DNA of 39,648 nt from a virus. A program made the translations under genes and the position numbers. This document shows, piece by piece, positions 6,483 to 19,768 of this stretch. The notes under the pieces are model-generated. The model did not search any database, was not told the origin of the DNA, and saw only the letters and a list, made by a program, of their open reading frames with translations. The stretch's first letter is position 1, and every line of letters starts with the position of its first letter. The stretch lies in IMG/VR virus record IMGVR_UViG_3300028678_000166, positions 1 to 39,648 of that record; one strand, given 5' to 3'.

Positions 6483-8070
6483 TCGGATTCCTCCTTTCTT
6501 GCTTTAATTATATAGAATTGAAATTTACTGATGAAACAAATGTTGGTGCTGTTGACCAATCAACTTGTGGTGCTTGCTTATTAACTATTCCGTCACGTCT
6601 AAGGTTTTTTAAATGCCAAGCTAACATTACCATTGTGTAAGCTCTATCATCATGCATTTTACTCTTTTTATCAGGAGGCAGTTCATATTTATAATTTATA
6701 TCATCACCTTGTCTTCTTATTGCAATTAATTCTTCTTTTGCGTTATCAATTTGCTTTAATGCCAATTCTTCGTCCCAAGATAGATTGTATTGTTTATAAT
6801 CTATTGATTTTACCTTTTTCTTTTCATTCGTATCCTCATCAATTTCTTCAATCTCTTTTCCTTCCTGTGGTAGACTTAAGTACCCTTTCATATCATAATT
6901 ATCTGTAAATTCAATTAGTCCTAAATTTAATAATTCTACAAAATCATCATACATTTCTGTTTTATATTTTTTAGGTGATACTAATTTTAATTTTCCTACT
7001 GCATTCGGATAAGAATTTACATGTTCAGCACAGGCTTCTTTATCAATTAATCCCCTATGTTTATTTCCTTGTTCATCTTCCCAGTCGTCCATAAAATAAT
7101 CTGCGATTATCGGACCACCACCTCCTGAACCAGCATCAACTAGTAAACAATCTATATTCTCATAATCAGCCTTGCCTTTTCCGTTATAATTTATTAGCAT
7201 TTGTTTTATCTCTTTAATTTGTTCTGGCGTTCTCATTGGAGTTTTTTTCTTTTTCCCTAAATCCACAAGACTTACACAGTTTTGAATTATTAATTTCCAT
7301 CCAACTTGTTCATCATATATATATTCTCCTACTGATGTCGCTGAATTATCATAATCATGTGCTGGATCATATGAAATTGCAATGTGTCTTTTTATATTTC
7401 CTTCATTAATTAATAATGGTTTTCTAACTGATGAATTTTTCATAATTACTGCACGTTTTATAGGTTGTTTATTTCCACCATCAGCATCAAAACGATTAAA
7501 ATATTCTCGATTTGCTTTCTCTGAGTTTGACCTTATTTCATCATCAACTTTAGATTGTGATAACAATGGTATATTTAATTTTTTACCTTTTAATGTAGCT
7601 CCTATTATAACCTCACAATTTAAGTCAGCTACAAAATGGTCTTTACTTCCTGCAAACATTAACTTTGCCCACTCTTTATATAATGTATAAAATGCAGAAT
7701 CCGTACTACTAGCAGATGAACAAAACAATAATTGATTAGGAATATTCATCGGTATAGTTTCGGTGTTTATACCACCACCTAACTTAAACGACGAATCCTG
7801 TGTACAAAATGATTTTGTAACTGAAATATAGTTTTCACTTATGAAACCACTTTCATCATACAAATTTAAATTTGATCTTTTCCCTCTAATATTATCTTCT
7901 TCCCCAGAAACAGTAGTAACTTGACTGTTGTTAAATAGCTTACATCTAAATCCTTGAGGAGAGTGAACAAATCCATCATGGTTAGCACTTGCAGAAACTT
8001 CTCCTAAAAATATATCTGTTAATCCACAAAAAGATTCTATTTGTTTTTTTGCTATTGACTCCATTTTAAG

Positions 8071-8079
8071 TTGTCAAAG
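8071..8079 (-). other. In-frame TGA with flanking CTT codons in large terminase
   Basis: The minus strand reads GAT ACC TTT CTT TGA CAA CTT AAA ATG. The expected protein is DTF-L-KME; the extra TGA CAA plus one CTT separates two identical Leu codons. A hop from the first CTT to the second would restore the family sequence exactly. A 9-base insertion flanked by a 3-base duplication explains it equally well. Confidence 0.8.
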
Positions 8080-8184
8080 AAAGGTATCTTGGCTTTGACT
8101 TGCGGTTAATGAAAGTATAAAGCTTTGAAAGTTTGGAAATAACATCATTTTTGTCATTATAAATGGAGAACTTAAAGTTGATTT

Positions 8185-8189
8185 ACTCA
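8185..8189 (-). other. Five-base TGAGT interruption inside Walker A of large terminase
   Basis: The minus strand reads CGT AAT GGA GGC, then TGAGT, then AAA TCA ACT. Without the five bases the product is RNGGKST, a standard terminase P-loop. As it stands, Gly is followed by a stop, and the lysine codon is in another frame. The same heptamer, CTGAGTA, occurs at the interruption in the MBL RNase gene at 19397-19403. Confidence 0.85.
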
Positions 8190-8402
8190 GCCTCCATTAC
8201 GAGACATCAACCATAATGCAAATTGTTTGCTCCATGATTCTTGAAATGTATATTTTTGATAATCCATAAGTTCAAGTCCCAACACTAATTCTGCGAACTT
8301 TACAGGATTTCTTCTTCCCCATACAAGTATTTCATTGTATTTTAAATAACCTTCTAACTTTTTTTGAGTCAAATTACCTTTATTTATAATTGTGATACCC
8401 AT

Positions 8403-8510
8403 AATGAATTTAATTCACCTCCTTCTTATATCAATAAAGTTTGCTTAAACGCAACAAAAGACATGTTACCATGCCTTCAGTTATTGAAACATATTTTTTT
8501 ATTTAAATGC
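8403..8510 (-). terminator. Leader of large terminase with hairpin and T-rich tract
   Basis: Read on the minus strand, a CATG-GTAA-CATG hairpin is followed by TCTTTTGTTG, then AGGAGGTGAATT ahead of the terminase start. A similar TCTTTTGTTG tail follows the hairpin at 12130-12176. It may act as a weak terminator or attenuator between the small and large terminase genes. No other coding is seen here. Confidence 0.35.
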
Positions 8511-9967
8511 CTATTCACTATTATTATTATTATTATCATTTAATAACAATCTTAATTTATCTCTACTAATACCCACTAATTTTGAAGCTTCGCTTATTCA
8601 CTTATAACACTATTCAATATTTTTTGTTTTTCAATTTCTTTTTTATTTTTAATAACCTTATCAATATGCTCCATAGTGTCAATAGGTACTATTTCCTCAA
8701 CCATATTATTAAAACTTATTTGGTCTTCTTTATAATTCTGCTTTTGAATAGAGTCTTGTCCATCCTTTATGTCTCCGTAGTCCAAAACATCATAATAATC
8801 TGTTTCTAAAACATCTTGTTTATAATCTACATCATTGAAAGAGCAAATCGCCTTTAATTTTCTATTTTCTTCTCTTAATTTACTGTATTCTTGTTCATAA
8901 AAATTTATTTTTTCGTTTTGGAATTTTACCATATCTATTAAATCATCATCGCCAAAATTAAGATTTTCTACAATTGCTTTTGCGGATAATCTTGCTGTTT
9001 GTAACATACCATTAGAAGTCTGAATATCAAATAAATTAACTTGTGCTTCTTTTAAATCTATTTCTTTTAACTTTTTAACCATGCCCGTTAATGTATTTGC
9101 ACCGATTGTTTTATGACCACTATATAAATCACTAATCTTATTGTCTTTCGCTAAAGCCAATAAACTTTTATTTAGTTTTTCTTTAGTGTCGGTTAAGCTT
9201 TTAATAGTTCCAATATTGTCTTTTATACTTTTTATATCAGAACTTAAATTTGTTATAACATCATTTATTTTATTTTCTTGATTTTGACCTTTTATAATAC
9301 TTATTATTGCACTATTTTTAAGCTCATCATTTTGACTATCTTCATCTAGCATATTTATCAACTTGGCATACATTTTTGATTTATCTTCTTCTATTTCATT
9401 CTGAAAAGGATCATATCCGATTATTCTAATAATATCTTCTTTATTTTGTTTATCTCTTACTCGTTGTTCAATTTCTTCGTCAGTAAACTCTTTAGGCTTA
9501 GATATAATTAAGCTATTTTCTTTTTCTTTGGTAGTATCATCCTCAACAATACTCATTCCTAAATCAATTTTATCTCCATGTTCAAAAGCATAACCTTTAT
9601 AATTTTTAAGAGAATTTATTGTTTTTATGTATTTTTTCCATACTTCTAATCCATTTTGTACTATAGTGAAATCTTTATTCCATCCTGCTTCTGTTAATGA
9701 ACTATTGTATATTCCTTCGAGATATACAAAATCCAATAACTCACATATTTTATATATTGATATTTTTATATCATTAGTTTCTTCTAAAAGTGATACATAA
9801 AAATTAGTTAAACAATCTTTACATAAAGATACTCTTCCAGTATAAGTATGTAATTTTGAACTCGATGTGTAAAAATTATTTGTATTACTAAGTATTGTTC
9901 CACACTTAGTACATCTAGTTTTCCCTTTCATCTGCTCATCTAAATCTTTTGTCTTAAAATCTGCCAT
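8511..9967 (-). CDS. Putative terminase small subunit; C-terminal HTH behind a stop codon
   Basis: The main open frame (8594-9967, 457 aa) starts at ATG 9967 after TAGGTGAAAAT. It has an N-terminal zinc-ribbon (CTKCG near residue 20, CKDCL near 50), an acidic helical middle and a coiled coil near 340-370, and stops with TAA at 8594. Eight bases on, another frame reads EASKLVGISRDKLRLLL and runs to 8511. This completes SEASKLVGISRDKL, a textbook helix-turn-helix. The full-length protein would therefore carry a C-terminal DNA-binding HTH that the present frame lacks. Its location just upstream of large terminase suggests TerS. The family assignment is inferred; zinc ribbon and HTH are visible. 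Confidence 0.7.
8589..8596 (-). other. TAA stop with matched GAA codons in the small terminase HTH
   Basis: The minus strand reads ATA AGT GAA TAA GC GAA GCT TCA AAA. Skipping from the first GAA (8597-8599) to the second (8589-8591), over TAAGC, restores the HTH frame. Alternatively an 8-base insertion, partly copying neighbouring AAGC and GAAGC, has broken the gene. Confidence 0.7.
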
Positions 9968-10014
9968 TATATTTTCACCTACTTAATTTTTTACATAATA
10001 AAAAGTCACCAAAA

Positions 10015-11370
10015 TTAATTAGCAACTTCTAATTTTTTTAATATTTTATTACTTCTATATTGTTCTTCTAACTGTTCGTCAAATGCTCCTTCAAAAAATC
10101 TAATTAAGAACTCATCAAACTGACTATGTGTATTTCTTCCATATCCATAATTTTGATGAAATATTTTATGATATTCTTCTTTCATACATTTCCCTAATGG
10201 ATACCTGTAATGAATTTCTGTACATTTACATATAATTTGTTTTATTTCCATATCTGTATAATTACTTATAGTTTCATATATAGGTAATTTTAATTCTTCT
10301 AAAGTATCTCTAACTATATTATCAAAACTATATAAGTGATGAATATGATCAAACCTTTCCCCTGTAATAATACATTTGAAATTGCATTCTTTCATACTAT
10401 CTAATTTCCATTGGTTAATATTTCTTCTTAATTCATTTTCTATATTACTAATTCCACCTTTATAATTAGGATTTAAACTACCAAATCTTGCAGAACCAAA
10501 CATTGGATTATTTTCGCCTTTTGATTTTCCATTTTTAAGTCGAGTCTCACTTATTTTATTTCTCCATTCCTCAGTTTGTGCGTCATTTGTTGCTCTTAAT
10601 TTACTTTCATCACTTTTATGTAAATTTAAACTATGAGCTTTATCCATAATTTGATTAATTGTTAAATGTGGGAAAAATTCATTCTTCATTTCATTATTGG
10701 TCATATCTGAATAATTATTTTGAATAATTATTACTTCTTCATCTTTCCATATGTATGAATCAGATATTGCATAGTTCTCACCTTTACATTTTTTGCATAC
10801 GTTTCTAAAACCATCACTACAAGTATTATCTTTTGGAAAATATAAAAATTCTAATGGTAAATATTCATTACAGCACTTGCATAATTTGTATCTTTTGCCT
10901 TTAATGTCTTTATATTTTATTTTGTCATAATCTTCTACTACATTATTTATTTTATATAATCCTAGTTTTTTACTCATATGTAATACAGATTTTTCAGTAC
11001 GATTAACGCTAAGCAATGGAATTATCTCTTTGATTATTAATTTATTATAATTAGCTATAATAATATCTTTATCCCTTTGACTCCATGTATCTTTCTCATT
11101 AGAACAATTTAAACACTTAGACAAATATCCATCTTTAGCTTTAGCATATAATCCAAATTCTGATACCTCTTTTTTAATATTACAACATTTGCAAACTTTA
11201 TATCCATCTTTAGCATAGAACTTTTCTCTATATTTAATTTCTTGTTCTGTTTTTGCTTTATTCCTACAAGCTTTACATGTATTTTCAAAACTTCCATTTT
11301 TGTTTTTATAAAAATTTTCCTCGTTTAATTCTTTTTCTTGTCCACATTTTTTACATTTTCTTATTTCCAT
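10015..11370 (-). CDS. HNH homing endonuclease with zinc ribbons and NUMOD3
   Basis: 451 aa from ATG 11370, nine bases after AGGAGG (an upstream TTG is in frame but too close). Three CxxC...CxxC zinc ribbons of the 'KxCKxCGxxKELxEFY' type lie in the N-terminal 195 residues, followed by HTH-like SANT-type helices, then a NUMOD3 segment (GENNPMFGSARFG, NPNYKGG) around residues 290-310. A C-terminal HNH-like region follows (CIITGERFDHIHHLY near 335, HKIFHQNYG near 410). Free-standing homing endonucleases like this cut conserved sites in phage genes. It sits between the terminase and replication-type genes. No intron or intein is seen around it. The cleavage target is unknown, but the interrupted motifs nearby are worth testing. 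Confidence 0.85.
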   Translation of the reverse strand: MEIRKCKKCGQEKELNEENFYKNKNGSFENTCKACRNKAKTEQEIKYREKFYAKDGYKVCKCCNIKKEVSEFGLYAKAKDGYLSKCLNCSNEKDTWSQRDKDIIIANYNKLIIKEIIPLLSVNRTEKSVLHMSKKLGLYKINNVVEDYDKIKYKDIKGKRYKLCKCCNEYLPLEFLYFPKDNTCSDGFRNVCKKCKGENYAISDSYIWKDEEVIIIQNNYSDMTNNEMKNEFFPHLTINQIMDKAHSLNLHKSDESKLRATNDAQTEEWRNKISETRLKNGKSKGENNPMFGSARFGSLNPNYKGGISNIENELRRNINQWKLDSMKECNFKCIITGERFDHIHHLYSFDNIVRDTLEELKLPIYETISNYTDMEIKQIICKCTEIHYRYPLGKCMKEEYHKIFHQNYGYGRNTHSQFDEFLIRFFEGAFDEQLEEQYRSNKILKKLEVAN

Positions 11371-11427
11371 AATCAAATTCCTCCTAAATTGCTAATATCA
11401 CATAGCTCATTATTTTATAATTTATTT

Positions 11428-12096
11428 CTATAAATAACTTTTAACTTTTTCATCATCAATTTTTACTAAACCAAATAACTTCAAACTATCTAAATCTAGT
11501 TCTTTCCCTGAAGCATAATATTCTGGATTTATGTAAATAGCTTTTTTATGACCATATTGAACTCTTTTTAACATATTTTTATCTTCCAAAGATTTTAAAG
11601 CAGTAATTATACTTCTTTCAGTTAATCCTATAATTGGTTCTAGTTCTTTAATAGTAGGAATATGATCATTAATTACAATACAATTAGTAGGATACTGAAT
11701 GAAATCTCTCATTATATAAAATACTAGCTTTTCATTTGTATTTAATTTCATATTCATCACTCCCTCAATTTTATTCCTATAAACTATATTGAACTCACCG
11801 TTATCAAAATTCTCCCTTGCTTTACCACTCTTTTTCCTTTTAACTTTCTTCTTAGTTAAACTTTGTTCATTCTCTATGCCAAATTCAGTATTAGACACAT
11901 AATTAGCAGTAGCAAACATTTCTGTTTTATACTTTTCTAATTTAGTTTGTATTATTTTGTCATGCTCTGATTTTGTTATAAATTCACCAGTTTCAGACTG
12001 AATAAAACTACCACCTTGTATTTCTAAAAATTTACTATCTTCTTCAATTATAAAATATCTTATTAATTCACCTATATTATTGTTTTGCATCTTCAT
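11428..12096 (-). CDS. Winged-helix protein, RepL-like C-terminal domain
   Basis: 222 aa from ATG 12096 (AAGGAGG four bases upstream; a second ATG six bases on is also possible). The N-terminal 100 residues are polar with a basic KKKVKRKKSGKA patch. Residues about 115-205 form a winged helix: LNTNEKLVFYIMRDF, PTIKELEPIIGLTERSIITALKSLEDKNML, then a wing and YINPEYYASGKELD. The INP-x-x-x-G ending resembles RepL-type plasmid initiators and phage replication or transcription regulators. Role: DNA binding, likely regulation or replication; the target is unknown. Confidence 0.65.
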   Translation of the reverse strand: MKMQNNNIGELIRYFIIEEDSKFLEIQGGSFIQSETGEFITKSEHDKIIQTKLEKYKTEMFATANYVSNTEFGIENEQSLTKKKVKRKKSGKARENFDNGEFNIVYRNKIEGVMNMKLNTNEKLVFYIMRDFIQYPTNCIVINDHIPTIKELEPIIGLTERSIITALKSLEDKNMLKRVQYGHKKAIYINPEYYASGKELDLDSLKLFGLVKIDDEKVKSYL

Positions 12097-12129
12097 AATG
12101 CCTCCTTAAATTTATTTTTACGCACAACA

Positions 12130-12176
12130 AAAGACTGAATATCACAACAGTTAATACTGCATGTAGTTCAGTCTTT
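12130..12176 (-). terminator. Hairpin with T-rich tail between two small genes
   Basis: A perfect 10-base stem (AAAGACTGAA with TTCAGTCTTT), whose 3' arm on the minus strand is followed by TGTTGTG, lies in the gap between the DUF5659-like gene and the winged-helix gene. It probably acts as a weak terminator or a transcript-end stabiliser. Confidence 0.5.
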
Positions 12177-12234
12177 CATACTTAATACTCATATTTAATT
12201 TATTTAACATTAGTTGTATCAGCACTTTACAAAC

Positions 12235-12525
12235 TTACTCTTCTTTGTTCTTCATATTATTTTGAGTTCTAATAGCGTCAGCTATTACCCTTTTTATCTG
12301 TAATAATTTGTTGATATAATCTTGTAGACATATATTAGTTTTATTTTTAAAATCTTGTTCCAATTTAATCAAATCTTCTTTATAGCCTTCAATATAAAAA
12401 AATACTTTGTAATCACTTTTATATCTTTTATTTTCTTTCACCTCAATATTATTATATGTATAACCATTAAGAAGTAAGTAAGCTACCATTTCAGATTGAC
12501 TATATTTGTAATTAACTTTTTCCAT
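12235..12525 (-). CDS. DUF5659-like small protein
   Basis: 96 aa from ATG 12525, nine bases after TATAGGAGG. The pattern 'MVAYLLLNGYTY...YKVFFYIEGYKEDLIKLEQDFKN' (hydrophobic helix, Gly turn, strand KVFFYIE, helix) resembles the DUF5659-type proteins common in clostridial phages and plasmids. A second gene of this shape is at 23997-24158. The function is unknown. Confidence 0.6.
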   Translation of the reverse strand: MEKVNYKYSQSEMVAYLLLNGYTYNNIEVKENKRYKSDYKVFFYIEGYKEDLIKLEQDFKNKTNICLQDYINKLLQIKRVIADAIRTQNNMKNKEE

Positions 12526-12531
12526 ATTCAA

Positions 12532-12829
12532 ATTCCTCCTATATAATTTATTTTAGGTATTCTACAAGATAATTTTACCATATAGAATACTAATTTACAA
12601 TACTTTATTACATTAATTTATTATTTCTAGCTATCCACCTAATAGGCAAATATCATAAAAACAATAAGCATTATACGTTAAAAATAGACTAGACAACAAC
12701 TCATCTAGACAACAACTCATCTAGACACCTTAAAACCATATTAAATTAATTATATGTTGTAAGTAATCTTTGATTACGCCACAACAAATCATGCTTTAGC
12801 ATGACAACCCCGTAGAGTATAATAATCTA
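12532..12829 (-). promoter_or_regulatory. Gap with tandem repeat, two hairpins and a likely promoter
   Basis: No gene is seen. On the minus strand, in order: hairpin CATGCTAAAGCATG; hairpin GTAATCAAAGATTAC; two tandem copies of GATGAGTTGTTGTCTA; then TTGTTG, 18 bases and TATAAT, a plausible sigma-A promoter for the DUF5659-like gene with a leader of about 140 bases. The leader contains a copy of the ACAAATTAATGTATAAA-type motif (variant at 12607-12625). The GTTGTTGTCTA element also recurs near 27050, 30160 and 31840. Confidence 0.5.
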
Positions 12830-13435
12830 TTAATTACCTTGCTTCATATCTTGTAATACTTTAATTTGCTTTAATATATTTTCCCTTGATAACGTTGTAT
12901 TTTTATTCTTAGGTGTTTCAGCGTATTCAATCATTAATTCTTCTATTTGAGTATCACAAAAACTACTACGAGTAATTTTAGACTGTCTACTATCTATATA
13001 TTCAATATTATCATTAGTAATCATGCAATATATTTGTTTAACGTCCATAGGTTTTAATATACTATCAATATATTCTTTATTTAAATAACATTCGTCAAAG
13101 AAAGCAATTTCAATATTTCTACACGCTTTAAATTGAGTATTAGGATTAATATAAAACACTTCTAATTTGTTACCATCATTAAATTCTATAGAATCCCTTT
13201 CTCTAGATGATTTATATAATTTTATAGAATTACTTTCTTTATATGTGTATTCTTTAAAATAATCTTGTAGTATTCTACTTGAAAATGGTGAAATATATAA
13301 ATACTTCCCGTTCTTATTCTCTATGATCTTCCTAAACACAGAATAAGTTTTTCCTTCTCCTCGTTCCCAATTACATACTACAATTTCCTTTTTACTATTT
13401 AACATTTTGTCTTGATAAACTCTCATCTCACTCAT
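12830..13435 (-). CDS. P-loop ATPase domain protein (helicase or terminase-type N-terminal half)
   Basis: 201 aa from ATG 13435, ten bases after AAGGAG (a TTG nine bases earlier is in frame but too close). Walker A is NWERGEGKTYS near residue 25 and Walker B is IEIAFFDECY near 110. The motif order QDKML (Q-like motif), Walker A, 'YLYISPFSSR' (Ia), Walker B, 'IYCMITND' (III) matches the first RecA-like domain of helicase or terminase ATPases. The second domain or nuclease is missing and the frame ends cleanly, so it may work as a stand-alone ATPase. A Rho-independent terminator lies upstream. The function is unknown. Confidence 0.65.
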   Translation of the reverse strand: MSEMRVYQDKMLNSKKEIVVCNWERGEGKTYSVFRKIIENKNGKYLYISPFSSRILQDYFKEYTYKESNSIKLYKSSRERDSIEFNDGNKLEVFYINPNTQFKACRNIEIAFFDECYLNKEYIDSILKPMDVKQIYCMITNDNIEYIDSRQSKITRSSFCDTQIEELMIEYAETPKNKNTTLSRENILKQIKVLQDMKQGN

Positions 13436-13507
13436 TTTTATCAAACTCCTTCTTATATAATCTTTATTTACCTATCCATCTTGATAAGCATAACTAAAAT
13501 TACATAT

Positions 13508-13539
13508 AAAAAGGACTAGATATATTTCAACCTAATCCT
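13508..13539 (-). terminator. Rho-independent terminator
   Basis: Minus-strand stem AGGATTAG with CTAGTCCT (one G-T pair), 12-base loop, then TTTTTAT. It lies after the acidic-protein gene and before the P-loop ATPase gene. The 3' end, AGTCCTTTTTAT, also resembles half of the Rep iteron, probably by chance. Confidence 0.75.
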
Positions 13540-13591
13540 AATAAGGACATAAAATTTTACTTTTAACTGCTTTTTATATTAATTTATTAAC

Positions 13592-14221
13592 TTAAATATG
13601 ATCAATACTTTCTCTAACGTCCTTTAAACAATCATCGAATCCTTCTTCGTAGCCCATCTCAATAGCATCAGAAATTGTATCTTTAATTAAATTATAGATA
13701 TTTCCAACTAAGTATTTGTCTAAATCCAGTTCGTCAATGCTTGATAAAAGTTCTTCAAATAAAATCTCTGTTGTATCTTCTTCTTCAATTTCTTTTTCGT
13801 AATCTTCGTCGTCACTATATTCACAATTATCGCAGTCATAATTACATTCTTCTTCTGAATCATTTTCATATGTACATTCAACTAACATTACCATTCCAGA
13901 AAACTTCTTTATATCAATGCAATCAGCTAAATCGGAGTCTATAAAAACAATATCACTATCATCTTCTAATGTTTCTCCATCTTTACTGAAGACTTTTTCT
14001 ATAAAATATTCTATTTCTCCATCTTCATAAATGTTTTTAGCAATTGCTAATATATCATTTTCTTCTATTAGATTTTCAACATAATCAAAATCAGCTTCAC
14101 AGAATTGAACTCCATCTTCCATTAATTCTAAAACTGTTTCACCAATTTCTATGCCATCACCAATAAATACTGTACCTGATTCTTCTGAATTTAGTATCAT
14201 TTCTTTAATTAATTCTTGCAT
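13592..14221 (-). CDS. Highly acidic protein of unknown function
   Basis: 209 aa, ATG 14221 behind GAGGGAG. Roughly a third of residues are Asp or Glu. A cluster near 120-150 (ECNYDCDNCEYSDDEDYEKE) has four Cys in a CxxxCxxC-like pattern that could bind metal. The C-terminus ends with an amphipathic helix. Strongly acidic phage proteins are often DNA mimics (anti-restriction or anti-repressor), but there is no motif to prove that here. It is in line with the following small gene and ClpP. Confidence 0.65.
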   Translation of the reverse strand: MQELIKEMILNSEESGTVFIGDGIEIGETVLELMEDGVQFCEADFDYVENLIEENDILAIAKNIYEDGEIEYFIEKVFSKDGETLEDDSDIVFIDSDLADCIDIKKFSGMVMLVECTYENDSEEECNYDCDNCEYSDDEDYEKEIEEEDTTEILFEELLSSIDELDLDKYLVGNIYNLIKDTISDAIEMGYEEGFDDCLKDVRESIDHI

Positions 14222-14259
14222 TTTTTATTATCTCCCTCACTTATAATATTTAATTTATT

Positions 14260-14601
14260 TTATACTTGACTATCATCTTGAATATCTTGTTTAATTTTTG
14301 TGGCTTCTAAATTCATTCTACCTGTACTTTCATTAAGAATATATTGAAAAGCATCAGCATTATTTACTCCTACAGATACTAATCCGATAAATTGCCCACA
14401 AGCAAAACTAATATCTTTCAAACCTTTTTTAAATATATCTTCGTCTAATTCAAATCCATTTAACTCATCAGTATTGATTTCAATCCTAGGTGTTATTTCT
14501 TCTATAATATCTAAAACTTCATCTTTACTATAATATTCTTGTTCTTCCATAGGCTGATTTGGTTCTATTTCTTCAACTTTATTTAACTCTTCTTTACACA
14601 T
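14260..14601 (-). CDS. Small acidic protein of unknown function
   Basis: 113 aa from ATG 14601, preceded by ATATAGGTGAGAATT; an in-frame GTG nine bases earlier overlaps the ribosome site and is less likely. The N-terminal 50 residues are acidic and the C-terminal half is a compact helical domain (ISFACGQFIGLVSVGVNNADAF). The ribosome site follows the real ClpP-frame stop by five bases, which suggests that translation normally reaches that stop. Confidence 0.65.
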   Translation of the reverse strand: MCKEELNKVEEIEPNQPMEEQEYYSKDEVLDIIEEITPRIEINTDELNGFELDEDIFKKGLKDISFACGQFIGLVSVGVNNADAFQYILNESTGRMNLEATKIKQDIQDDSQV

Positions 14602-14619
14602 AATTCTCACCTATATCCT

Positions 14620-15216
14620 TTATATAATTATTTCATCAGCAACATTTAATTTTAAAGCAGTAGCACCATCCATATAAAAGTCTTTATTACTCTTTGTATA
14701 GCTATCAAATTGTTCTTTAGTTATACCTGTTTTCTCAGTTATTAAATCAACTATTAACTTGTACCATCTATCGCATTGCTCTCTATCATTTACAGTATCT
14801 TGATATGTCTCAGTACCGTATCTAAATCTATTCCATTGGTGTCACATTAAATCACTTCTCTTATATACAAATCTTTTAGATCCACATATAAATATTTTGA
14901 ATGCCATTGAATAAGCATAGCTTGTACAATATGTATGAATTTCTATCCCTTTATTAATGTAATATTCCATTAGGTCACAAAAATGCATTCCATCAACTAA
15001 ACTTCCTCCTGGAGAAGCTATGATTAATTTTATTGGTGTTCTATCTTCCTTGCTCAATGATAGTTGTTTAGTGGCAAGTTTCTTTAATTGTCTTGATAAC
15101 ATTATTATAAATTCAGTTGTAATTTCATCATCAATATATAGTGTATTATTATCTTTGTAATCTACTAATTTGATTTCTTCTAGCAATAAATTCCGTTGTT
15201 GATATACTTCTCCCAT
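14620..15216 (-). pseudogene. ClpP-like serine protease with an in-frame TGA before the catalytic His
   Basis: ATG 15216 to TAA 14620 gives 198 codons, the normal ClpP length, but codon 125 is TGA (14842-14844). Before it: ASPGG (near residue 68) and the catalytic serine in SYAYSMAF (Ser103). After it, in the same frame: HQWNRFRYG, a helical arm and TGITKEQF...YMDGATALKLNVADEI, the family C-terminus. The family motif is M-x-H-Q, so the TGA occupies the position of x (Trp would need only TGG). Stopping at TGA would remove the catalytic His. Phage ClpP-like proteases mature heads or modulate host proteolysis. It is readthrough-dependent or dead; the downstream gene spacing fits the long form. 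Confidence 0.85.
14842..14844 (-). other. In-frame TGA codon in ClpP
   Basis: The minus strand reads TTA ATG TGA CAC CAA TGG. Both flanks are in one frame and no bases are inserted. Unlike the other four interruptions this looks like a single-base change (for example TGG to TGA) or a readthrough codon. Confidence 0.85.
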
Positions 15217-15246
15217 AACTTTTCACCATTAATCCTTTATTTTATT

Positions 15247-16482
15247 TTAATTGATTTGTAAATTTATATCTCTTATATATTCAACTCCATCATAGTTAAC
15301 TAAAATTAGAGTTTGACTTGCATGTGTTGTACATTGAAGTTTGTCCACACTATATGGATTCATACCAAATAATGAACCTATAGTTGTTACGTACCCACCA
15401 TTATTTTGTGAACTTACACCAAAATTATGATAATGTCCTCTTATTAACATAGCATACTTTATATTATTCATACTTGTTTCTGTGTCATAGAATTTCTTAT
15501 CTTCTTTAGGACTTTTATCACCATGTTTAACTTTTATAACTCCAAAACCTAAGTCAAACTCTCCACAATCTTCTTTAAAATCAATATCACAAACGTTGAC
15601 TCTATCATTCTTAGCTAAAGTAAACCACTTCTTTAAATTCTTAACTATGGTATAATTGTTGTTATCTCCTTCAATATTTCCATCTTTATAAGCTTGGTTT
15701 CCACGCTGATGGTTTCCACCTACTGAATATAAGTCTACATTTACCTTCATTTCTGATATACTTGTAATAAATCCATATAGCAATTCCTCAGCCATAACAA
15801 TCTGTTCATTACTATTAAATTCACAACTATATGATTGATCTTGTCCACGCATATAAATTCCTTCAGTTAAATCTCCAGCTTGCACTACTATAACTTTAGA
15901 TATATCATTTTTATGTATTTCTTTTTCTATTTCAGATAAGAATCTAGATAATCTCTTTTTAGCTATTTCATAATTATAACTATTTCCTCTATAATCCTTA
16001 ATAATGTATCCTATATGCCAATCTGAAATGCAACAAATTAGTGTTTTTTCTGATTCATCTTCAATTCTTTTATAAGATAAAGGTAGAAAGTTTTCACATT
16101 CTCTATCAATATACTCATTTATGTAATTTGCAATTTCAATATTCTTTATAAAGTCTTTCTTTATTCTGTTAAGTTTATTAGTATCATTACGAATTAATTG
16201 CTTTTTAACATCTAACTCACCAATCAATTCAGTGACTTCGTCTATTTTATTTTTTACTGCTTTATCACCTTTTAAAGATTCCAAACATTCAGCACACGCA
16301 ATTTCATAAATTTTATATATACCACGGAAATAACTCTCTTGGAAGTCAGTTCCAAGTTCTTGATTAATTACTTCTGCAATTTCTCTATTAATCATATTAA
16401 ATTGTGTTTTGTTAGAATACATTCTATGTATATATTTTTCTCTTGACTCGATTTCCGATTTTAAATATCTTTCATCTTCCAT
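15247..16482 (-). CDS. Calcineurin-like metallophosphoesterase
   Basis: 411 aa, ATG 16482 after GAGGGAGAATT. All five motifs of the family are present: CISDWHIGY (about 151), VVQAGDLTEG (about 203), GGNHQRG (about 256), IKVKHGDK and RGHYHNFG (about 350). The N-terminal 140 residues are an alpha-helical, coiled-coil-like extension with an HTH-like segment. The family cleaves phosphodiester or phosphomonoester bonds with two metals; phage members are often DNA exonucleases of the SbcD type. It lies upstream of ClpP in the same unit, 30 bases apart. The substrate is unknown. Confidence 0.9.
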   Translation of the reverse strand: MEDERYLKSEIESREKYIHRMYSNKTQFNMINREIAEVINQELGTDFQESYFRGIYKIYEIACAECLESLKGDKAVKNKIDEVTELIGELDVKKQLIRNDTNKLNRIKKDFIKNIEIANYINEYIDRECENFLPLSYKRIEDESEKTLICCISDWHIGYIIKDYRGNSYNYEIAKKRLSRFLSEIEKEIHKNDISKVIVVQAGDLTEGIYMRGQDQSYSCEFNSNEQIVMAEELLYGFITSISEMKVNVDLYSVGGNHQRGNQAYKDGNIEGDNNNYTIVKNLKKWFTLAKNDRVNVCDIDFKEDCGEFDLGFGVIKVKHGDKSPKEDKKFYDTETSMNNIKYAMLIRGHYHNFGVSSQNNGGYVTTIGSLFGMNPYSVDKLQCTTHASQTLILVNYDGVEYIRDINLQIN

Positions 16483-16525
16483 AATAATTCTCCCTCATTA
16501 TTATTTTACTTTCATAATTTGTTTT

Positions 16526-16732
16526 CTAAAGCTTTATAATATCTGTACTTTCTCCACATTTATTGCAATAAAAAATATATTCTTCATTTGTGCCTATCTT
16601 TTCAAAATCCTGCAAAGACACTTTTTCATCAATATCTATATTACTTTTGCAATTCTTACATTTAACATCTTTATACTTTTTGTGTTGTTTCTTTTTATCT
16701 TTATTACTCATTCTTCCATCTTCTTTTAACAT
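16526..16732 (-). CDS. Small zinc-ribbon protein
   Basis: 68 aa from ATG 16732 (or 61 aa from a later ATG after AGAAGATGGAAGA). A basic N-terminus (MSNKDKKKQHKKYK) is followed by CKNC...CNKC spaced like a zinc ribbon. It is probably a nucleic-acid-binding or protein-binding accessory factor. It is the first gene after the tRNA region, with a palindrome-containing gap upstream. Confidence 0.6.
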   Translation of the reverse strand: MLKEDGRMSNKDKKKQHKKYKDVKCKNCKSNIDIDEKVSLQDFEKIGTNEEYIFYCNKCGESTDIIKL

Positions 16733-16867
16733 CTCATATCTTCCCTTTACTCTTTAATTTTTAATTAATTTTAAATACATTAAAAGCTCATAACATCACA
16801 TGCAATGAGTTTTATCATATATTTAATTTATTTCCTATTCATTTTACTATTTACATATTGCACATTT

Positions 16868-16906
16868 AAGTTTATAATATAAATTGGTATATTATACAAT
16901 AAACTT
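16868..16906 (-). promoter_or_regulatory. Long imperfect palindrome overlapping a TATAAT box
   Basis: The inverted repeat AAGTTTAT(TGT)ATAATAT / ATATTATAAACTT, with an 8-base centre, lies 140 bases ahead of the zinc-ribbon gene. Read on the minus strand it contains TGTATAATAT, a good -10, with a weak -35 (TTCCAG). It could be a repressor-controlled promoter. Confidence 0.4.
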
Positions 16907-16941
16907 ATCTGGAACAATATTTAATCCCTATCCGTAATGTT

Positions 16942-17034
16942 CTATTCATCTAATCCCATAGGGTAAAACTCTTGTACTTCGAGTTTCATATAATCGGAAG
17001 CTTTTCCAGTTAACAAAGAACTATCGTAATTCAT
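16942..17034 (-). CDS. Possible 30-aa peptide just after tRNA-Ser
   Basis: ATG 17034 to TAG 16942 encodes a 30-residue acidic peptide ending EVQEFYPMGLDE. The ribosome site (CAGG, five bases) is poor. The sequence looks protein-like, so it may instead be the remnant 3' end of a gene replaced by the tRNA. Low certainty. Confidence 0.25.
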   Translation of the reverse strand: MNYDSSLLTGKASDYMKLEVQEFYPMGLDE

Positions 17035-17056
17035 TAATCCTGTTGAAGGCTTTATT

Positions 17057-17146
17057 TGGAGGAGAGTGAGGGATTCTAACCCTCGATACGAATAAACGTA
17101 TGCTGATTTAGCAAACCAGTGCATTCGGACACTCTGCCAACTCTCC
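17057..17146 (-). tRNA. tRNA-Ser(GCU)
   Basis: A 90-base cloverleaf including an encoded CCA: acceptor GGAGAGU/ACUCUCC, anticodon stem CUGGU/AUCAG with loop UUGCUAA (anticodon GCU, codons AGC/AGU), a long class II variable arm, and T arm GAGGG-UUAGAAU-CCCUC. The discriminator base is U, where bacterial tRNA-Ser normally has G. It is the only tRNA found, and its anticodon is not a stop suppressor. Confidence 0.95.
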
Positions 17147-17825
17147 GTGTAATGTGATATTATTATTTAACCTCCCATATATCACAAAAGGGAATACATC
17201 TTTTTTGTTAGAGCCATCATAACTCAATTCATTATTTGTGTGGATATATTCCAACCCAATATCTAATCATTCTAGAATGAACAATTAGTCACGATGGTAC
17301 AGCTAGAATGCCTCCATCTATCAATACAATGTATTTTTGTCGCACATTGTGAAGCGTATTTGTATCATAGGTTTTTATTTTTCAAGATCAAATCTCTAGT
17401 TACACCTAAGTTTACCTAAAACTCTAAATAAGACTCCATATTTACCCGTAACAAGGCAAATACTTCATTGTCGTTCTCTCAACTTAAAGTATTGAGTATG
17501 AGGTAAGTATATTACCAACTAATAAAATTCACTGTTTGTAGTATTTAGTATGTTATTAGTAAATTTTTAGTATTGATTTCCTTATTCCCACTTGGGCAAA
17601 ATTCTTCTTTGTCTGAGTTTCTAACTCACTTCAATATTTGTTGGGAATCTATACCTCGTTCTTTATAATCTTTGAATAACAGACTATGTATTACCCAATA
17701 GCCAAGCAAATCATGGTATTATTATTCCCCCACTAGGGAAAGGATCGTTATTCTTTTACTCCTTATAAAACAGTTCTTTTAATGAAAGGTCACGTCTATT
17801 TCTAGTACATGCCTTTGTTCACATT
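17147..17825 (-). ncRNA. Candidate large structured non-coding RNA beside the tRNA
   Basis: About 680 bases without an ORF, between YonK and tRNA-Ser and presumably co-transcribed with them. It is more G+C-rich and structured than other gaps here. On the minus strand, hairpins include GAGTTAGAAACTC, CCCAAGTGGG and CCCTAGTGGG, plus GGGTAA and GGAGG patches. Position next to a phage tRNA, length and structure resemble the settings of GOLLD and ROOL RNAs of Firmicute phages, but I could not match either consensus by eye. Class unproven. Confidence 0.5.
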
Positions 17826-18017
17826 TTATTCTTCAGATGGTATATCATTATCCTTTTTAATTGTTACAGTTAGTCCGTCTTCTCCAATCCATTTTCTAAT
17901 TTGATTTGTTAGATTGTATGTTTTAGAATCATCTTTTCCAACTTCTGTAATCTTAAATTCTCCATCTTCCTCAGTTATTACTGCTTTTGAAAAACTTACA
18001 TTTTTAGTTTCTTTCAT
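17826..18017 (-). CDS. yonK: YonK-like protein
   Basis: 63 aa, the same length as SPbeta YonK. A beta-rich N-terminus is followed by a central helix (YNLTNQIRKWIGEDG) and the ending LTVTIKKDNDIP, which parallels the VSITVKEENELP ending I recall from YonK. YonK is a small oligomeric SPbeta protein of unknown role. Start ATG 18017 with GTGGAGAAATAATT. Together with the YonO-type RNA polymerase at 21187 it ties this phage to the SPbeta-type gene set. Confidence 0.75.
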   Translation of the reverse strand: MKETKNVSFSKAVITEEDGEFKITEVGKDDSKTYNLTNQIRKWIGEDGLTVTIKKDNDIPSEE

Positions 18018-18019
18018 AA

Positions 18020-18142
18020 TTATTTCTCCACCTTTTCGTTATTCTTTTTCTTTTCATTTAACATTTTAATTGGTTGGTTTTGTAAATTATTTAAGGACTG
18101 ATAGTTAAATCCTGATAATGTACGCTTAGTTGAATTTTTCAT
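18020..18142 (-). CDS. 40-aa basic peptide of unknown function
   Basis: MKNSTKRTLSGFNYQSLNNL at the N-terminus and a Lys/Glu-rich C-terminus. ATG 18142 is preceded by AAGGAGAGAAATAGA, a strong ribosome site, and the stop is two bases from the YonK start, so the two are coupled. A copy of the recurrent AATTAATGTA motif lies at 18159-18180, just upstream. The small size and lack of homologues known to me leave its function open. Confidence 0.6.
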   Translation of the reverse strand: MKNSTKRTLSGFNYQSLNNLQNQPIKMLNEKKKNNEKVEK

Positions 18143-18175
18143 TCTATTTCTCTCCTTATTTCTACATTAATTTGT

Positions 18176-19651
18176 TTATAAAATGAATTGTGAAGCAAAT
18201 TTACTTACTCCTACAATTTTAGTTGTTTTATTTTTACTTTGTAGATATTCAGTTCCCTTTTCTTTCATTTCAATTTTTCCTTCTTCAGTACAATGGTGTA
18301 TTAGAATCTTATTTGTGTTTATTTGACTCCAGTAGCTAAAAATTTCTTCTTGTTGAATGTGGCTCGAAAATGTTTTCTGAGTAAGAACATCACAACTTTT
18401 TATTAATGTACTTCCATCAATTTTAATAGGAGTGCCTATTGGTCTAGTAACTAATTCATGAGAAATTGAACCTTCAGCTCCGTAATATCCTACGAAACAA
18501 ATTAGATCTCCTGTAACTCCCATAAAATTTTTAACATAGTCACAACTACGTGTTTTAGGTTGAACAAATCCACTAGAACTTATGTAAATTCCACATTCTC
18601 TTTTAGATAATATTCCCAAAGTACCTTTATATTCTTTATTATAACGAAAATTCTTCCAGTTTTTTATTCTCTCCCAGTCCTCAAATTCATCATATTTTAA
18701 TATCTTGCTATAAGTATCACATATAGAATTAGTTAATCTTCCATCAATTGTTACTGGTATTTCATTAAACCATTCTTCATCTTTAAAAAACGAATTTATT
18801 AAAAATTGTAACTCTTGGGTACGCCCGAAAGAAAAGGAAGGAAAAAATACTCGGTGTCCACTTTTTAAATATTTAGTTAAAGTTTCTTTTAGTTCATTTC
18901 TTTCTTTTTCTACTAAATTTTTATCAAAGCACTTTTCAGAGTTTGAATAAGTTGCCTCAAAAACGTACATTGAAGCCTTAGGAATTATATCTCTTTTCTT
19001 TACAAATGGTTTATATTTTAAATTGTAATCTGATCCCAAATCGCTTGTGTAAACTAAGGATTTTATATTATTGTTAGGTAGTCTAAAAGTAAGTTTCAAT
19101 TGAGTACCACCTAATACATGTCCAGAATTATAAAATTCATAACTTAACCAATCATCAAATTTATATACTTGATGTGTTTCAACTGTTTTTACCTTCTCTA
19201 ACATCTTATACATATCTAATTCAGTATATAAGTTTTTAGGTCTTTTCCCTTTTGCTTTTAAACCTTTTATTAAACAATCATGTAAATACACACTATCTTT
19301 TAATAATTCTTTAGATATCATTAAACATTCTTCTGTTGTAATTATTTCACCTTTGAATATATCTTGTCCAAATATAGGTGTGTTCCCAATATGGTCTACT
19401 CAGACGTGGGAGTGCATTAAAAACACTCCCGAAATACCTCCTACTGGAATATTTTCAACCATTTTTTTATTCATTGAATATTCTATCTCTGGTTTTGATT
19501 CTCCTTGTATCATGCCACATTCTAGACAAACGCATTTATGTTTGTCATTTCCTATAGGATAGCTAATTAATAAAGCAGATCCACAAATATCGTCCCTACT
19601 TCCACCGACAAAACTTAAAATTATATCATTATCCTTATTCTTTTTGCTCAT
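18176..19651 (-). pseudogene. Beta-CASP metallo-beta-lactamase RNase with TGA inside HxHxDH
   Basis: ATG 19651 to TAA 18176, 491 codons plus stop, the usual length of RNase J/CPSF-type beta-CASP enzymes. Visible motifs: HSHV-TGA-VDHIGN (residues 80-89; motif 2), FYNSGHVLGG (motif 3 His), LVYTSDLG (motif 4 Asp), FSFGRTQEL and SSSGFVQ (beta-CASP), and FSSHIQQEEIFSYW (terminal His). Such enzymes are zinc-dependent endo/exoribonucleases acting on RNA. The TGA (19400-19402) and the extra Val codon split the zinc-binding motif; removing six bases restores HSHVDHIG. A fragment starting at ATG 19321 (381 aa) would lack the first metal ligands. It is interrupted or recoded. Confidence 0.85.
19397..19402 (-). 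other. TGA plus synonymous Val codons inside the MBL zinc motif
   Basis: The minus strand reads CAC TCC CAC GTC TGA GTA GAC CAT. The stop is flanked by GTC and GTA, both Val; moving from GTC to GTA over TGA gives HSHVDH. CTGAGTA is shared with the Walker A interruption in large terminase. Confidence 0.85.
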
Positions 19652-19768
19652 AAGTAAGTCTCCCTCTATTATATATTATGTCTATTGACAAAGTGAATAA
19701 TAGTCAAAGAGAGACTTAATATAAGTAAAACTCAATTAAATCTCTTTTGATATATCCAATTTATTTAA
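19652..19768 (-). terminator. Gap with a hairpin
   Basis: On the minus strand, AAAGAGA pairs with TCTCTTT across a 28-base loop between the 83-aa protein gene and the RNase gene, without a long T-tract. It may be a weak terminator or processing hairpin. Confidence 0.3.

Follow-up and report, generated by a model that had tools for sequence, protein, structure and literature searches.

Introduction

Natural translational bypassing is known from very few genes. In bacteriophage T4, a homing-endonuclease gene lies beside the bypassed gap of gene 60, and the gap may protect against cutting (PMC5009743, PMC3014915). We analysed a viral DNA stretch of 39,648 bp, which is the whole of the IMG/VR virus record IMGVR_UViG_3300028678_000166 (hereafter, the window), together with homologues of two of its genes, encoding the large terminase subunit (TerL) and an MBL/beta-CASP RNA-hydrolase-like protein. 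Both genes are interrupted by insertions of a few nucleotides (nt) that begin with a stop codon. From the sequence comparisons, it appears somewhat probable that the tiny TerL and MBL insertions are stop-led bypass ('stop-hop') cassettes, and likely that recoding of some kind is involved.

The insertions resemble T4 gene 60 in that the stop directly follows the take-off codon (in 16 of 17 events) and the landing codon is in part matched (synonymous in 11 of 17; PMC3014915, PMC5009743, PMC11194080), and in that a homing-endonuclease gene adjoins, here in some carriers. At the MBL gene, the likeness extends to a predicted 5' stem-loop and a predicted take-off hairpin, which is the T4 layout in small. 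They differ from gene 60 in the length of the gap (2-15 nt, as against about 50 nt), in the often imperfect landing codons of TerL, and in their recurrence across many phages, in a different gene and at more than one place in it.

In the synthetic 'stop hops' made in E. coli, a stop was flanked by matched codons and 9 nt gave one amino acid (Weiss et al. 1987, via PMC5009743), and the title of that paper, as given in the reference list, names +2, +5 and +6 shifts. The same form of codon, stop and synonymous codon was found in MBL (GTC-TGA-GTA) and in the TerL of one relative, L132 (CTT-TAA-CTA), with the difference that these are natural genes, apparently under selection. A 2016 review knew of no natural in-frame stop-hop (PMC5009743). 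The byp elements of Magnusiomyces capitatus mitochondria (PMC5009743) are similar in being many short inserts in coding genes, several with imperfect landing codons; the present inserts differ in being bacteriophage-borne, mostly in one gene, very short and stop-led. For the terminase of Streptomyces phage Hau3, a putative bypass has been placed at a UUA codon after KGWG (PMC5009743). That case also concerns a terminase near a WG motif (TerL site 31 of the present set follows WGR), but the decisive codon is a UUA and not a stop, and another cause was proposed. The Hau3 proposal was the sole case of terminase bypass found in the literature searched; most subscription papers lay outside the search, so prior publication is possible.

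Large Firmicutes phages repeatedly carry insertions of 2-15 bases, nearly always stop-led, in a TerL gene under selection, which suggests a ribosome hop. If true, a very rare mode of decoding would occur here naturally and in compact form, and the 17 events described below, of varied length, stop and codon, would let the requirements of the hop be measured without construct libraries. It would also explain the escape of the packaging gene from homing endonucleases, and 'frameshifted' terminases in phage annotation may then be working genes.

Insertions in the TerL and MBL genes of the window

Four lineages were compared, namely A (the window), B (L010), C (L007) and D (a 20-kb contig). The window is identical to a 130-kb IMG/VR contig across the 20,960 bp common to both. 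A near-DNA search with window positions 6500-19700 against GenBank phages and plasmids gave zero matches. The features of the two interrupted genes are as follows.

6508..8402, minus strand: TerL, interrupted twice (start at 8402 likely; gene aligned to L007 and L010)
8189-8185, minus strand: insertion of 5 nt, TGAGT, after GGC in Walker A; stop TGA, last triplet AGT, resuming at AAA; absent in L007 and L010
8076-8068, minus strand: in-frame insertion of 9 nt, TGACAACTT, after CTT; last triplet CTT, resuming at AAA; absent in L007 and L010
18176..19651, minus strand: MBL/beta-CASP RNA-hydrolase-like gene, interrupted in HxHxDH (Pfam Beta-Casp, 2.4e-7; phrog_36352, 5e-43)
19402-19397, minus strand: insertion of 6 nt, TGAGTA, after GTC; stop TGA, last triplet GTA, resuming at GAC; also in L023
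19408..19430, minus strand: predicted mRNA hairpin GGGAGUGU/GCACUCCC, ending 2 nt before the MBL take-off codon (-17 kcal/mol)

TerL was identified through its intact relative L018, for which the match to PHROG 2 ('terminase large subunit') has an E of 3e-23 and matches to Bacillus phage terminases are weak. Pfam TerL_ATPase gave 0.013-0.014, below the cut-off. TerL residue numbers follow L018. An earlier reading of the window from its letters and open reading frames (ORFs), referred to here as the sequence-only reading, had reported a stop at the Walker A motif of TerL and had proposed alignment with relatives as a check. Alignment to L007 and L010 bore out the stop as GGC-TGAGT-AAA, with a further 9-nt insert downstream. 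L007 has 82-84% DNA identity here and reads RNGGKSTLSSPF and DTFLKMES at the two places; because it reads straight through both, the window has 5 and 9 nt inserted there.

The same reading had found MBL broken at HxHxDH as GTC-TGA-GTA, and this was confirmed. The 6 nt sit between the Val and Asp of the motif, which is uninterrupted in three distant homologues (L317-L319, 23-28% identity). The insert lies within a 28-codon identical run, the longest of the gene, with P 0.002 for this position and 0.02 for a run of such length anywhere. The predicted hairpin upstream has a z of -4.7 on 43 nt and of -2.65 on 72 nt, and a second small hairpin, GUCU-GAGU-AGAC, covers the take-off codon, the stop and the last triplet.

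Both TerL inserts recur in contigs of six metagenomes (L002-L006, L009), and the MBL insert recurs in contigs of three (L020-L022) and in L023. Two of these contigs, L009 and L022, are each one base off the window, elsewhere than in the inserts. Among the TerL relatives described below, the same insert was present in three metagenomes for L058-L060 and in two for L061/L062, and L056 is the same stretch as L131, from the Paenibacillus pini JCM 16418 draft genome. Short indels in metagenome contigs are what sequencing or assembly error would produce. However, since they are repeated unchanged in contigs from six and three metagenomes, the TerL and MBL inserts are not sequencing errors, and the error model of the sequence-only reading is excluded for both genes. 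A non-standard genetic code fares no better, as the inserts use TGA, TAG and TAA and mostly shift the frame, which no reassignment explains. Error or an altered code was thus considered extremely improbable.

Recurrence of tiny insertions in TerL

TerL homologues were gathered by scanning viral contigs and genome contigs. Three of the viral-contig scans contributed the best 80 of 114, the best 80 of 203 and the best 80 of at least 383 relatives, and the set is thus a sample. From 167 loci, 80 were distinct, and 76 more loci added 24, giving a total of 104 representatives (the TerL of the window being L140). These still include near-identical genes, and three (L124, L211 and L269) are without the N-terminal part. 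In family- and class-wide genome searches, TerL was present in 4/394, 1/80 and 4/391 genomes. One locus from these searches, L237, equals L113 letter for letter over 4,446 bp, insert included, and is perhaps from the same strain. A DNA-pattern search of viral contigs for extra site-31 carriers gave 22 stretches, with nine in TerL and none new.

Tiny insertions of 2-15 nt were present in 19 of the 104 representatives, mostly after residues 31, 45 or 47; the 24 loci added later included no carriers. After residue 31, which follows WGR, the inserts read CGA-TAGT-AAA (L056), CGA-TAGA-AAA (L058), CGT-TAGC-AAA (L103), CGA-TAGC-AAG (L113) and CGA-TAGC-AAA (L110, L118, L122 and L150). At the same site, L051 has a 15-nt insert with two stops, and L010 reads CGA-ACGA-AAT, without a stop, or equally CGT-CGAA-CGA one codon earlier. 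The site 45 inserts are GAA-TGAG-TTA (L007), GAG-TGAA-TTC (L017) and GAT-TGAC-TTT (L061), and those of site 47 are CTT-TGATT-GAC (L111, L112) and CTT-TAACTA-GAC (L132). Sites with a single carrier are 72 (Walker A) and 108, both of the window, 81 in L149 (GTG-TA-ATG) and 185 in L125 (CTT-TGACGAAGGCTT-TCT). Three loci (L068, L069 and L138) were excluded from the count, their extreme 5' stops preceding the likely start.

A tree of the part of TerL after residue 111 was built from 80 rows by a quick search, with 48 of its 76 inner branches at 95 or more. The insertion state changes at least 11 times on this tree, with eight changes for site 31 alone and five for sites 45/47. A small set of conserved TerL sites has acquired insertions over and over.

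Two side observations concern TerL. L294 has a single plain TAA close to the end of the gene and was excluded from the insertion count. L007 and L008 are identical over 16,772 bp save for one 4-nt indel in TerL, which reflects either active mutation of the gene or an assembly slip.

Stop and codon patterns

The insertions were reduced to 17 events, comprising 16 in TerL (L110, L118, L122 and L150 counted as one, as were L111 and L112) and one in MBL, and the codon statistics treat these events as independent. In 16 of the 17, the last homologous codon is followed at once by an in-frame stop. As in-frame inserts without a stop would escape notice, the fair count is that of the frame-shifting events, in which the stop is immediate in 11 of 12; when random inserts were simulated, the chance of this was 14% for each event (P about 3e-9).

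The take-off codon and the final triplet of the insert agree in their second base in 17/17 events and are synonymous in 11/17. Shuffled triplets gave means of 6.4 and 2.5, respectively, and none of 100,000 shuffles was as high. Without the five site-31 events, the second base agrees in 12/12 (P 3e-5) and the triplet is synonymous in 10/12; in the in-frame events, it is synonymous in all five. The stop type tracks the take-off codon, with TAG at CGN and TGA at GAN. In a 4-nt insert that starts with TAG or TGA, part of the last triplet is already set, though the pairing of stop and codon is itself the pattern.

In a stop-hop, the ribosome would stand at the last homologous codon while its A site holds the stop codon. 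At this point, the peptidyl-tRNA would release, shift by 2-15 nt and re-pair with the triplet that ends the insert; this triplet shares the second base of the take-off codon and is usually synonymous. Translation would then pick up at the next homologous codon, and the hop, at whatever efficiency, would yield an uninterrupted protein. Imperfect landing reportedly has a precedent in work by Herr et al. from 2004, going by its title.

Other forms of recoding were also considered. Bacterial release factor 2 (prfB) +1 frameshifting is a stop-triggered recoding event, and the CTT-TGA-C at the 9-nt site of the window recalls it, with the difference that the frame is kept here. A +1 (or +2) frameshift at the stop could serve the 4- and 5-nt cases, adding one residue, and readthrough could serve the in-frame ones. 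Every 4-nt insert can indeed be read as a skipped base and one codon (CGA-T-AGC-AAA), a TGA-C context is found at the 9-nt site and in the ClpP-like gene of the window, and TerL and MBL are under selection. However, readthrough would add two residues inside HxHxDH, L051 has two stops, and neither the link between stop type and take-off codon nor the synonymous last triplets would be predicted. These forms of recoding are judged improbable as the explanation.

Selection on the interrupted genes

L110 and L150 both carry CGA-TAGC-AAA and, with a third carrier, form a clade that has a support of 97. Over the last 540 codons, the two are separated by 112 synonymous and 36 nonsynonymous changes, giving a ratio of nonsynonymous to synonymous rates (dN/dS) of 0.058 at a synonymous divergence (dS) of 0.48. 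Codons 32-73 showed seven synonymous and zero nonsynonymous changes, and codons 1-31 three and one. In 148 random changes, 9.2 new stops would be expected and none was seen (P 8e-5). If the insertion came from the common ancestor of the two, TerL continued to be used in its presence. For L122, which also carries TAGC, the dN/dS against L110 and L150 was 0.13 over the long part. For MBL, the window and L023 have the insert in common, and the dN/dS was 0.088 over the 83 codons before it and 0.043 over the 406 codons after it. A clear selection test came from these two shared insertions, L110/L150 in TerL and window/L023 in MBL, and purifying selection persists across both.

Termination and re-initiation would be a further possibility, the two parts being made separately and then assembling. 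A phage gene pair split by a homing-endonuclease gene is known in T4 genes 39/60 (PMC3014915), and an ATG is the second codon after the insertion in L007 and the first in L149. Elsewhere, the first in-frame ATG, GTG or TTG after the stop lies 13-24 codons on in all eight site-31 loci tested, 8-10 codons on at four other loci and 29 codons on in L125. In MBL, the first 25 codons after the insert contain no start codon and show four synonymous changes and one nonsynonymous change between the window and L023. The codons before the first in-frame start stay conserved where tested, and split genes appear very improbable.

The neighbouring genes were examined for signs of decay, which the sequence-only reading had raised as ordinary loss of function during conversion to a plasmid. 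Within the flank fetched for each locus, the longest ORF lying downstream of TerL was scored where the matched part was 200 residues or more, and it was unbroken in 90/90 loci scored (of 104), including 15/15 carriers; TerL itself is interrupted in 19/104. Comparison of neighbouring alignments among lineages A, B, C and D showed small sense-strand frame breaks only in TerL, together with one 1-nt break in D; this comparison is blind to stops inside an alignment, and MBL and ClpP were not flagged by it. Decay is disfavoured by these results, though the ClpP-like gene of the window has a nonsense codon. The suggestion that bypass or readthrough silences lytic functions was not supported either, the genes looking conserved where tested. 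L046, from the same record as L023, has a one-base frame break in a different gene; it falls on a run of A and was set aside.

Homing elements and the possible origin of the insertions

The sequence-only reading had also proposed repair scars left by homing endonucleases. In the window, a candidate homing-endonuclease gene (HEG) lies near TerL.

10015..11376, minus strand: HEG-like ORF upstream of TerL ('endonuclease' by analogy; Pfam DUF6510 below the cut-off)

Inteins at GK|T, 3 nt from the Walker A insertion site of the window, were present in 12/104 TerL representatives (L104, L105, L107, L114, L115, L118, L120, L122, L123, L135, L150 and L205). They span approximately 430 to 1,120 nt, and close relatives differ in having one. 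L205 is the nearest tree neighbour of the window sub-clade, and in L118, L122 and L150 the intein is downstream of the site-31 stop, within one open frame. The lineage B TerL contains two group I introns (L010:8181-8421 and 8956-9259), which match Rfam RF00028 at 61.3 bits, above gathering, and at 38.4 bits, below gathering (E 5e-8). Remnants of such introns were rejected as the source of the inserts, the B introns lying at residues about 174-179 and 341 and not at insertion sites. Gaps of approximately 255-261 nt were seen near the first intron place in L149 and L205, as was a 1,131-nt gap at residue 181 in L259.

Relatives of the HEG-like ORF of the window were present at 17/104 TerL loci. 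HEG-like genes related to those of lineages A or C were found in the fetched flank of 8/19 carriers and 11/85 others (P 0.006), a count uncorrected for relatedness or flank length. A third query added a non-carrier, L105, which was left out; with L105, P is 0.010.

Homing endonucleases of inteins, introns or free-standing genes may have cut conserved TerL sites that were then joined imprecisely, the carriers being defective prophages or phage-plasmids sampled soon afterwards. The inteins beside the Walker A insertion, the group I introns and the HEG-like genes in or near the TerL of relatives favour such scars, as do the recurrent gains, the lesions in every member of the window sub-clade, the 4-nt deletion that alone separates L007 and L008, and the ClpP nonsense codon in the same genome as the window's insertions. 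Random joints, however, would not give an in-frame stop in 11/12 frame-shifting events, nor a synonymous triplet in 5/5 in-frame events. Selection continues after two shared insertions, and the longest downstream ORF is unbroken in every carrier scored. Across the 104 representatives, three of which are without that part, sites 31, 45 and 47 showed neither intein nor intron. As an origin of the insertions, endonuclease cutting draws support from the neighbouring inteins, the B introns and the HEG-like genes commoner beside carriers; as a full explanation, with dead genes, it leaves the selection and the near-constant in-frame stop unaccounted for and is rather unlikely. If it were right, the insertions would document how nucleases have attacked TerL in nature.

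Of the models in the sequence-only reading, bypass is the best supported for TerL and MBL, on the immediate stop, the codon match and the selection on both sides. The cassettes would probably be kept because they destroy homing-endonuclease targets without loss of the protein. A wider reading is held tentatively and as less probable than stop-hopping itself: that there is a natural class of minimal stop-hop phage cassettes of 2-15 nt (sense codon, stop, re-pairing triplet), recurring at endonuclease-targeted TerL codons, in which uncuttable DNA and a ribosome skip would together ward off homing elements, inteins and introns included, so that each cassette would be a tiny immunity element, with T4-like RNA signals in MBL. 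The immunity role is a proposal only, because sites 31, 45 and 47 showed no mobile element.

Several observations weigh against stop-hopping. The last triplet is not synonymous in 6/17 events, L010 lacks the immediate stop, and the registers of L010 and L149 were picked by the analyst. The mRNA structure at TerL sites gave no consistent signal (Walker A z -1.8 to -2.6; in L051, a 6-bp hairpin is possible, z -0.4), and structure was rejected as a common signal, being clear only at MBL and weak at Walker A. The single origin of TAGC in L110 and L150 is an assumption, and in the first 31 codons L122 differs from these two by 4-4.5 synonymous and 6.5-8 nonsynonymous changes (dN/dS 0.27-0.37, on few changes). 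All five members of the window sub-clade (the window, L007, L010, L125 and L149) carry different lesions, and L008 has a further 4-nt TerL deletion beyond L007 that a hop would not rescue. The window lineage may itself be defective, given the nonsense codon in ClpP. Without the two loci that supplied the queries, the HEG count falls to 6/17 carriers (P 0.035), with relatedness ignored.

ClpP, small terminase and other features of the window

The sequence-only reading had placed motif stops in four genes. Those of TerL and MBL are insertions, as described above; the other two were found to be a plain substitution and a natural end.

14844-14842, minus strand: TGA in a ClpP-like gene, just before the His codon (catalytic according to the sequence-only reading); substitution
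8596-8594, minus strand: TAA ending the 'small terminase' ORF; same end in L007, similar end in L010

The in-frame stop in ClpP is real, recurring in contigs of five metagenomes. It involves no insertion, the site being TGC (Cys) in L023 and Ile in lineage B, and the TGA of the window is one substitution. The small terminase had been read as broken at GAA-TAAGC-GAA. The C-termini are ..NSVISE* in A, ..DSVISE* in C and ..ESVKNGELI* in B, and the TAA is the natural end, also in lineage C. A helix-turn-helix-like peptide, EASKLVGISRDKLRLLLND, follows at window 8593-8520; among A, B, C and D it is present only in the lineage of the window, and it may be a remnant of an endonuclease gene.

The heptamer CTGAGTA, proposed as a shared signal, occurs four times in the window against 3.3 expected, which is not above chance. 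A suppressor or unusual tRNA was considered and rejected, as ARAGORN gave only tRNA-Ser(GCU) in A and C and none in the B or D contig, with no link to the insertions. This tRNA lies at window 17057-17146 and is also present in lineage C, and was not found in B.

Intergenic stretches at window 12705-12822, 12132 and 8459 have a similar TTTTGTTG or TTTGTTG motif and are possibly a regulatory unit; the stretch at 12705-12822 is 83-87% conserved in L010 and L023.

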